Positions 25,991 to 28,411 of a DNA stretch of 49,679 nucleotides are shown here, piece by piece. This stretch comes from a virus. The stretch lies in the IMG/VR virus record IMGVR_UViG_3300036799_000033, positions 1 to 49,679 of that record. One strand, given 5' to 3'. The position numbers and the translations under genes are program-made. The notes under the pieces were generated by a model, which was not told the origin of the DNA, made no database searches, and worked only from the letters and a program-made list of their open reading frames with translations. Position 1 is the first letter of the stretch; each line of letters opens with the position of its first letter.

Positions 25991-26019
25991 TTGACTTTCA
26001 AGGGGTTAGGGTGTATAGT
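25991..26019 (+). promoter_or_regulatory. Sigma70-like early promoter
   Basis: TTGACT (25991-25996), 17-bp spacer, TATAGT (26014-26019). It shares the extended TTGACTTTC box with the leftward promoter and with the promoter at 29640. It precedes the gene at 26045. Confidence 0.78.
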
Positions 26020-26671: not shown

Positions 26672-26801
26672 CTTTCTAATCCTATCAGGCCATCGCGGTC
26701 TGGGCTGTTTGACAATGGCTAGTGCGATCCCAAGGCTAGGGCCGGGGTTAAGATAGCACAGCCTACATACTAGGGAAATGCCAGAGGTGGCTATCCCATC
26801 G

Positions 26802-26842: not shown

Positions 26843-27037
26843 ATGATCTTAACACCAGGAGATAAGAATGTAGTCCACAATCTTCGTGGTCAACACCCTC
26901 AAGGATTGGCAAACTACAGTGACGAGGTAATAGCCTTAGCTTGGCGTATATTCTCTCAGAGTGATGAACACACTGGTCATCCATCTGAGGAATTGTTTGT
27001 TGAATGGTGCAAGATAGCCGAAGAAGAACTGAAATAA
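26843..27037 (+). CDS. Small hypothetical protein (64 aa) inside an inverted repeat
   Basis: 64 aa starting MILTPGDKNVVHNLRGQHPQ, with AGGGG about 10 nt upstream. The body (YSDEVIALAWRIFSQSDEHT, then EELFVEWCKIAEEELK) is helical with an acidic C-terminus. I recognise no family. The gene is precisely bracketed by the 26802/27067 inverted repeat, so its transcript could be held in a long-range stem, or the unit could be a small insertion. Confidence 0.55.
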   Translation: MILTPGDKNVVHNLRGQHPQGLANYSDEVIALAWRIFSQSDEHTGHPSEELFVEWCKIAEEELK

Positions 27038-27067: not shown

Positions 27068-27157
27068 TTGTGTGCGCAGCACTGACTGTGGGCAACCGTG
27101 GTCTATGCTTCGCACTGTGCGGATTGTATAACCCTGGCGCAGCCTGAGGGCATTACC

Positions 27158-27364
27158 ATGAACCTAAAACCTTTCTACCATCTGCAAAATCCACAATGGC
27201 GTGTAGTCTATCGTCCACATAGTCGCTGGTTTGTGCAGCGATTATCGGACCACAAGGCAAGTCGTGAACATGATCCTTGGGAGGATATAGGCAGACCCAA
27301 GGATGATAAAGAACAGGCCATGAAGTCAATGTACCGTATGCTGCCTCTCGTTCTTAGAGCTTAA
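27158..27364 (+). CDS. Small hypothetical protein (68 aa)
   Basis: 68 aa starting MNLKPFYHLQNPQWRVVYRP. The start at 27158 has GAGGG 8 nt upstream; the earlier in-frame ATG at 27098 lacks one. The protein is rich in aromatic, Arg and Lys residues (HSRWFVQRLSDHKASREHDP), suggesting nucleic-acid binding or a compact basic fold, without a recognised family. It directly precedes the structured non-coding region. Confidence 0.58.
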   Translation: MNLKPFYHLQNPQWRVVYRPHSRWFVQRLSDHKASREHDPWEDIGRPKDDKEQAMKSMYRMLPLVLRA

Positions 27365-27385
27365 CAAACATTGCGCCAGAGTTAT

Positions 27386-27716
27386 ACAATCCTACCAACC
27401 CGGCGGAGGGAGGAGGGAATTCCCCCCTTCCCTCGGCACTCCCGCCACGGTATCTCTCCCCCACGGATACCGTTCTCCCTCTACCGGGTTGGCGGGGGAT
27501 TGTGCAGGCGGGGGCTAACGCGACCTCTCTATCCTAGAGGTAGGATTTGTATGGGCTGAAAAGCCTAGCATAGCGTTAGCTCCTCCCTGTGCAATCCTGC
27601 ACAGCCAACACCAGACGAAAGAATGGACGTTAGCTAGAGGTTACCTGTTAGGGGTAGCTCCCCTTCCATTCCTCTGTGATGCTAAGCAATCGCCCATTGA
27701 GCGTCTGGTGCTAACG
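27386..27716 (+). ncRNA. Candidate structured RNA (three large nested stem systems)
   Basis: No believable gene occurs between 27365 and 27733, yet the plus strand folds densely. System 1: ACAATCC/CCAACCCGG (27386-27403) pairs with CCGGGTTGG/GGATTGT (27484-27503), enclosing an 8-bp hairpin (27447-27473) and a purine/pyrimidine hairpin (27406-27434). System 2: a 25-nt arm (27497-27521) pairs with 27573-27597 with one C-C mismatch and several G-U pairs. It encloses a 6-bp stem with 7-nt loop (27523-27541) and a stem capped by a GAAA tetraloop (27552-27567). System 3: CACCAGACG (27609-27617) pairs with CGTCTGGTG (27702-27710), enclosing GAATGG/CCATTC. Base-of-stem sequences of systems 1 and 2 compete. 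It could be a stable phage RNA or a 5' leader controlling the 27734 gene. It resembles no RNA family I know. Confidence 0.6.
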
Positions 27717-27733
27717 GACAGAAAGGAAACTCT

Positions 27734-28411
27734 ATGTCCGATACTACCCAAGGGGAAACCGCAACCGACAATCCCACGACCGAAGCTCCGGCTGGGACTG
27801 TCCTCCGCGTTCCCGTTACCAAGGCTAAGGGTGGCTTTGTAGAAATCAATACGGCTGAGTTGCCGGATGATGTCTACGCTGAGGCTCTGGCCCTGGGGGT
27901 CAAGGAACTTGCAAATCGCAAGATGAGCAAGATTACCAAGGCCCAATATCCTGACGCGGATGAGCTAAAGGCCGCTGCTCTGGCTCAGGCTCAGAAGAAT
28001 GTCGAGGATATCAAAGCCGGTAAGATTAAGTTTGCGGGGAAGTCCTCCGCAACCAAAGTCTCCGGTGCCGAGAAGACCGAAGCTATGCGGATCGCTCGTA
28101 ATCTGATTAAGGATACCCTGAAGCGGGAGAAGATCAAGATTTCTCACGTTAAGGCTTCCGAGATCACCGCAGCGGCTAAGGTTCTCTTGGAACAAGACCC
28201 CAAGATCATGGAGCAAGCGAAGGCAAATCTCGCCGCTCGCGATACCATCGGTACTGGGTCGATCAATATCCGGGCCTTAATCCATGAGGACCCGGCGCTA
28301 GTTGCGAAGGCTGAAGCTAAAGCGGCGAAGGAGAAGTCTGGAACCTTGTCTGCTAAGCAGGCAGGGATGACCAAGAAATCCAAGCCGGGAGCTTCTGCAA
28401 CGCAGCACTAA
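27734..28411 (+). CDS. Hypothetical early protein (225 aa), Lys/Ala-rich
   Basis: 225 aa starting MSDTTQGETATDNPTTEAPA; AAAGGAAA is the ribosome binding site. The first 25 residues are Thr-rich and disordered. Residues 25-60 contain VLRVPVTKAKGGFVEINTAE. The remainder is highly charged helix (AEKTEAMRIARNLIKDTLKR, KASEITAAAKVLLEQDPKIM) with a basic tail (KSGTLSAKQAGMTKKSKPGA). It may bind DNA or RNA. It is preceded by the structured region and followed immediately by a perfect hairpin, so its mRNA is likely a discrete stabilised unit. I recognise no named family. Confidence 0.8.
   Translation: MSDTTQGETATDNPTTEAPAGTVLRVPVTKAKGGFVEINTAELPDDVYAEALALGVKELANRKMSKITKAQYPDADELKAAALAQAQKNVEDIKAGKIKFAGKSSATKVSGAEKTEAMRIARNLIKDTLKREKIKISHVKASEITAAAKVLLEQDPKIMEQAKANLAARDTIGTGSINIRALIHEDPALVAKAEAKAAKEKSGTLSAKQAGMTKKSKPGASATQH

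Follow-up and report, generated by a model that had tools for sequence, protein, structure and literature searches.

The nut sites of phage lambda consist of boxA followed by boxB and need the phage protein N, and we know of no gene-enclosing stems in lambda; the put RNA of phage HK022 is a short two-hairpin RNA that acts on RNA polymerase itself. In ribosomal RNA (rRNA) operons the antitermination complex is nucleated at boxA, and the leader–trailer helix contains boxC, which lies further downstream (PMC10250234). The literature searches turned up no description of an rRNA-type boxA in the early operon of a phage. Here we analyse a structured leader upstream of an early gene, g27734, in the 49,679-base IMG/VR virus record IMGVR_UViG_3300036799_000033; this whole stretch is the window, and coordinates refer to it and to its + strand.

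The region upstream of g27734 almost certainly holds a real, conserved cis RNA, best read as the 3' part of a long cis leader that heads the rightward early operon, in front of g27734 on the messenger RNA (mRNA), rather than as a free RNA. Support is good for its structure and its location in cis, and from these we infer a mechanism. Comparison of related phages shows that the modules stand in a fixed order on the sense strand: a boxB-like hairpin and boxA, the 5' arm of a long helix (stem A), an insert, the 3' arm with an alternative hairpin (hairpin B), a branched domain (domain C) and the start of g27734. The part of this order from boxB–boxA through 5' arm and insert to 3' arm is that of pre-rRNA. 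The features in the window are the following.

25991..26019, + strand: promoter-like site TTGACT-17-TATAGT, a candidate rightward early transcript start (weak; 10/12 match to consensus)
26686..26702, + strand: boxB-like hairpin CAGGCC-ATCGC-GGTCTG abutting boxA, a layout shared by most relatives with boxA
26703..26714, + strand: boxA-like site GGCTGTTTGACA, a putative NusB/S10 binding site and the sole copy in the window, counting both strands
26843..27037, + strand: small open reading frame (ORF) of 64 amino acids (aa) between boxA and element 1, from the ORF list; no family match
27121..27392, + strand: stem-A element 1, enclosing a small gene; arms 27121-27141 and 27372-27392, 95% complementary
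27158..27364, + strand: 68-aa gene within element 1; the matching element of relative L050 holds a homologue (46%)
27395..27492, + strand: D1, a Y-shaped hairpin lying after element 1 and before element 2; minimum free energy (MFE) -59
27497..27597, + strand: D2, stem-A element 2; arms 27497-27521 and 27573-27597 around a non-coding structured insert
27588..27603, + strand: hairpin B, TGTGCA-ATCC-TGCACA, sharing the 3' arm of D2; its stems covary in relatives
27609..27710, + strand: D3, domain C; closing helix P1 27609-27617/27702-27710, AAAG bulge 27618-27621
Within D3, + strand: inner helices P2 27622-27626/27694-27698, P3 27629-27634/27681-27687 and P4 27636-27640/27671-27675
27635 and 27676-27680, + strand: internal loop U-AG...GUGAU of D3, between P3 and P4
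27722..27727, + strand: Shine-Dalgarno-like AAAGGA, from the sequence
27734..28411, + strand: g27734, the conserved early gene that follows the leader (225 aa)

The gap from the stop at 27364 to the ATG at 27734 measures 369 nucleotides (nt), and the sole ORF overlapping it (TTG-started, 62 aa) is a chance one; 24 nt separate the end of domain C from the start codon. On the + strand, 27360-27740 folds with an MFE of -175.1 kcal/mol against -125.2 +- 6.1 in 100 dinucleotide shuffles of the same region (z -8.2). This bears out a preliminary description, made from the letters alone, that had marked 27386-27716 as very strongly folded. The three sets of arms it listed are all present, in D1 (27395-27403/27484-27492, with an inner 7-bp part), in D3 (27609-27617/27702-27710, 9 bp) and in D2, whose 25-bp arms with one mismatch (27497-27521/27573-27597) form 24 pairs and one mismatch when G.U is counted; the GAAA-capped stem is there as well. 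Its loop–loop contact fared less well: the CTATCCT loop and the AGGAT after it exist, but they belong to the tip of D2, which is variable, and have no comparative support. The limits it drew hold in that 27386-27716 is structured, but the structure runs on upstream (arms 27121-27141/27372-27392; boxB–boxA 26686-26714), and the conserved unit itself reaches further upstream than the region first described. D1, for which no counterpart or conservation was found in relatives, looks lineage-specific; D2 and D3 are conserved modules.

The relatives belong to a group of uncultured soil phages, known here from metagenome contigs and present in many metagenome samples. As a scan of viral contigs with the single g27734 sequence returned none, they were sought with portal and helicase queries, which gathered 75 related viral loci, and afterwards with a g27734 alignment, which added 80 more, some on the same contigs. 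Removal of duplicates left 78 different regions preceding homologues of g27734, referred to below as leaders. The window's portal is podovirus-like, with <40% identity to the portals of cultured phages among the matches listed.

Relatives carry D3 and the hairpin at the end of D2 in the same place, and the covariation of P3 and P4 exceeds that of all controls, as expected of the multi-domain RNA first proposed; absence of conservation or covariation in related phages had been named as grounds for dropping the proposal, and both were found. The shared plan of domain C comprises P1, an A-rich NAAGA-like bulge, P2, P3, the internal loop YAG/RYGAY and P4. Many relatives have further helices inside P4, and the window has a short version. 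The alignment was made of 20 relatives, with the window left out, the structure supplied by hand and helices P3 and P4 defined from conserved motifs; MAFFT with an RNAalifold consensus detected hairpin B and one further helix only. Paired cells made up 81.5% of this alignment (68.6 +- 1.4 in shuffles), and cells changed on both sides numbered 59 against 22.3 +- 3.8 in shuffles of the 20 relatives, counts that do not represent independent events, the aligned sequences being related. The covariation score was 0.371, compared with 0.150 +- 0.017 for shuffled alignments and at most 0.129 for slid versions. When anchors were picked by sequence motif alone, pairing exceeded the maximum of 1000 permutations for hairpin B (0.558 vs 0.552), stem A (0.788 vs 0.744), P3 (0.700 vs 0.585) and the unforced pairs of P4 (0.808 vs 0.756). 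On the gene strand, G.U outnumbers A.C in P3 and P4 together (27 vs 2) and at positions 7-9 of stem A (23 vs 5), an excess that would follow from selection on the + strand RNA; when P3 and P4 are counted from motif anchors, with wrongly anchored rows included, A.C is not the rarer (G.U 10, A.C 15).

A covariance model, R1, was built from the 20 relatives without the window. Its sole match in the 49.7-kb window, with E values up to 10 allowed, lies at 27588-27727 on the + strand (28.8 bits, E 1.4e-7). A template of domain C (4-bp P3, YAG, 5-bp P4, RYGAY) fits at 27635/27676 and none of 5000 shuffles of D3; in the whole window it occurs twice on the + strand and not at all on the - strand. The window is thus a member of RNA family R1, with domain C present independently of hairpin B. 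In 70 other loci, R1 matches with E < 0.04 sit directly 5' of the g27734 homologue. In five leaders (L094, L101, L104, L105 and L125) the 3' strand of P1 may instead pair just downstream, as in GTGGG-CTTC-CCCAC, possibly forming a second mutually exclusive helix ahead of the Shine-Dalgarno site. Separately, a recurrent structured element, CTTACGSCGGGC-hairpin-ACCCGSCTTAAGGC-TTAGGAGA, occurs ahead of CATAGA-type domain C or of boxA in leaders L018, L019, L021, L023, L086, L088, L090, L099, L105, L131, L138 and L154.

As the preliminary description had held, the RNA matches no known family. Searched with the covariance models of Rfam 15, the window gave nothing above a curated threshold, and at permissive thresholds only spurious microRNA-type and viral-packaging matches; 19 relatives gave two transfer RNAs (tRNAs) and nothing else. 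A simple intrinsic terminator, that is a G+C-rich hairpin with a U run, was rejected, the + strand holding no candidate within 27365-27733, again in agreement with the first reading. The compact, stable fold might suit a non-coding RNA processed from the early transcript to act in trans, a reading to which we give very little credence, given that the RNA lies immediately 5' of the same gene and that the gap has no intrinsic terminator on the + strand.

The gene that follows is widely conserved among the related loci gathered with portal and helicase. The family (the window protein and 58 aligned homologues) is a basic, lysine-rich, early one. The window protein has no Pfam or PHROG match and its relatives give stray matches only. 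Neither g27734 nor a relative was found in annotated phage records, the g27734 alignment matched nothing in bacterial and archaeal genomes (one genome per species), and a nucleotide search of phage records with the structured region was likewise empty. The AlphaFold model is a confident one, showing two strands plus helices (mean pLDDT 86); a structure search against PDB and viral structures gave no significant match, and no RNA-binding fold was recognised. About 3 kb downstream of the gene, three relatives have a tRNA gene (L098:6506-6576, L103:6401-6472, L154:6166-6237); the window has none. These properties bear on the possibility that the leader chiefly controls translation or stability of g27734, perhaps through autoregulation by its product as in ribosomal protein leaders, with boxA and stem A as separate matters. 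A conserved, lysine-rich, early and otherwise unknown protein family encoded directly downstream of the RNA wherever the latter is found would fit such a scheme. It leaves unexplained the fixed order of boxA, stem A and hairpin B and the enclosing of genes by stem A, and the protein offers no recognisable RNA-binding fold, so that we regard it as rather unlikely.

In stem A, the 5' arm starts with GGATTG and the 3' arm ends with CAATCC, and both are constant. The extensions of the arms vary among loci yet are complementary inside each locus: with the constant ends removed, arms score a mean of 33.4 with their own partner and 10.8 across loci, and in 27 of 32 cases own-arm pairing lies above the 99th percentile of cross pairs. 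Loops as short as 5 nt and as long as 1118 nt are enclosed. In seven relatives (L049, L079, L090, L093, L105, L124 and L125) a small ORF begins ~35-52 nt inside the element and mostly ends shortly before the 3' arm; the elements of L050, L056 and L114 hold more than one small ORF each, and that of L074 holds none. The encoded proteins mostly differ among relatives. Stem A, with its constant ends and differing small genes, thus frames a slot whose content varies. Elements stand in tandem in the window and in L056. In L064, L066, L067, L068, L069 and L070, TGATTGCAAGCC-hairpin-GATCGTGCAATCC recurs between small early genes, as many as three times per locus.

Constant outer ends around different small genes, tandem elements, and several copies per genome in L066-L070 could also mark DNA cassettes, which, as terminal inverted repeats or as a folded single-strand recombination site, would carry small genes into the early region. 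The ends of integron attC sites, RYYYAAC/GTTRRRY, may be set beside the GGATTG/CAATCC of stem A, a comparison made by eye only. Several features tell against cassettes: the variable arms are complementary within an element and differ between elements, G.U exceeds A.C on the gene strand in stem A and in P3 and P4 (the one motif-anchored count excepted), hairpin B overlaps an arm and covaries, and the neighbours scanned yielded no identifiable recombinase. We consider cassettes improbable.

Hairpin B (consensus xxGC-AAUCCy-GCxx) is built on the 3' arm of stem A. Stems of at least 4 bp around CAATC occur in 40 of the 78 leaders, amounting to 46 hairpins against 3.8 in shuffles. Their two sides change together (GTGC/GCAC, GAGC/GCTC, AGGC/GCCT, GGAC/GTCC, GCGC/GCGC), and in several relatives (L008, L116, L129 and L130) the 5' arm of stem A changes along with them. 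The shared 3' arm and these joint changes indicate that stem A and hairpin B are mutually exclusive and that both are kept. A pseudoknot between GGAUU and the AAUCC loop is disfavoured relative to mutually exclusive helices, because the pairing runs on through the stem of hairpin B (e.g. in L114, L124 and L082). Two leaders have additional AAUCCY-loop hairpins beside the start codon, GGGGC-AATCCC-GCCCC at -30 in L099 and GGGC-AATCCT-GCCC at -27 in L116; these are possibly a second recognition hairpin.

Type-II hammerheads occur in the relatives (9 distinct; none in shuffled loci), mostly ahead of g27734: L012, L062, L093, L095, L098, L101, L103, L146 and L153, for example L098:2714-2764 on the + strand. 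A permissive Rfam search of four loci reported a hammerhead in L098 alone, below threshold (27 bits, E 0.19). A hammerhead in the window itself was rejected, the CUGANGA, GAAA and UH core with three stems being absent (descriptor scan, three permutations). The modules upstream of domain C could on this evidence be RNA-cleavage units, with stem A/hairpin B serving as a nuclease site, or as a self-cleaving RNA of a kind not yet described, that parts the leader from upstream mRNA: in L062, L146 and L153 the hammerhead occupies this very position, in other relatives it lies further upstream, and hammerheads and stem A/hairpin B look exchangeable within this group of leaders. The window lacks any known ribozyme core, and inserts of 5 to >1000 nt would be odd for a catalytic fold; the idea seems to us distinctly unlikely, if less so than cassettes.

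On the gene strand, 25 of the 78 leaders have a boxA-like site within 1500 nt; on the opposite strand none has one (mean in shuffled leaders, 0.1); outside leaders, 569 kb held 2 on the gene strand and 0 on the opposite one. In relatives having both, boxA lies upstream of the 5' arm of stem A, often by 25-100 nt. In the window the boxB-like hairpin at 26686-26702 stands directly 5' of boxA, as an rRNA-type site requires. The site, GGCTGTTTGACAATG, is of the kind seen in rrn leaders (GGTTCTTTGACAAGTG, TGTTCTTTGACATTG and others). L124 carries TTCTTTGACAAGTGAA, as does the 16S leader of Acuticoccus, and plasmid-borne alphaproteobacterial 16S genes have a similar site ~200 nt upstream, several after a hairpin. 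This likeness to alphaproteobacterial 16S leaders supports the identity of boxA, which probably functions as an antitermination site, and hints at an alphaproteobacterial host.

These observations suggest an early leader organised like that of an rRNA operon, combining Nus-factor antitermination, leader–trailer-like helices and control of the downstream gene, a combination we rate at a little under even. Through boxA, RNA polymerase would be loaded with NusB/S10 and Nus factors of the host, allowing the early transcript to escape termination by Rho. The Nus complex would aid pairing of the stem-A arms across the insert, in the manner of rRNA leader and trailer, giving a long helix that could be processed, with RNase III the obvious candidate; by analogy with rRNA such processing is conceivable, though we lean against it. 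After cleavage, or where stem A is absent, the 3' arm would refold as hairpin B and so cap the 5' end of the mRNA that follows. Domain C would set or regulate translation or stability of g27734, and some regulation of the gene by this domain is on balance likely. A fuller version, in which the phage leader copies the pre-rRNA plan, with boxB–boxA first, then leader–trailer helices around interchangeable small early genes, each competing with a hairpin that comes to cap the next mRNA at its 5' end, and last a new RNA class in control of the first core early gene, we hold to be somewhat unlikely.

Several points weigh against the rRNA-operon-like organisation. In the window, unlike in most relatives, boxA is separated by ~400 nt from the first arm and by ~780 nt from D2, and in 16 leaders with the hairpin-B loop motif boxA is absent or unrecognised. 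P2 is merely 45% paired in the 20-relative alignment. Taken alone, hairpin B scores 11.1 bits in the window and domain C 4 bits, so that the joint R1 match needs both, with hairpin B supplying the larger share of the score. The - strand of 27360-27740 likewise folds strongly (z -6.0), and there is no sign of RNase III recognition. Transcript, cleavage, Nus binding and regulation are all things we infer from sequence.

In any case the leader represents an RNA family that covariation supports and Rfam lacks, beside a conserved protein family of unknown function. Were the resemblance to rRNA operons to reflect mimicry, phages would be taking over rRNA-style Nus-factor antitermination without a recognisable N-like protein, and would provide a natural system of long-range helices around protein genes. 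Were the whole pre-rRNA plan copied, the phage would be turning the host machinery that makes ribosomes to the transcription and processing of phage mRNA.

Among known systems, lambdoid nut sites are alike in that boxA comes with a small hairpin in the early part of a phage operon, but the order here is boxB–boxA, and no gene like N was recognised in the neighbours scanned. The HK022 put RNA (PMC9378689) is likewise a structured nascent phage RNA in early transcripts, differing in size and plan, a distinction drawn by description only. Type-II hammerheads (RF02276; PMC3088659) occupy a partly equivalent position in leaders of relatives, the window being without their core. Ribosomal protein and riboswitch-like leaders share the structured 5' untranslated region with mutually exclusive helices ahead of one gene, but the leader here matches nothing in Rfam. 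The rRNA operon leader (PMC10250234) differs in that the insert here is a small protein gene or hairpins rather than rRNA, that hairpin B and domain C follow, and that the distance from boxA to the arm varies. It is alike in having a boxB-like hairpin and then boxA, followed by a 5' arm that pairs with a far-off 3' arm around an insert, and the long-range helix downstream of boxA that defines leader and trailer is found here as well.
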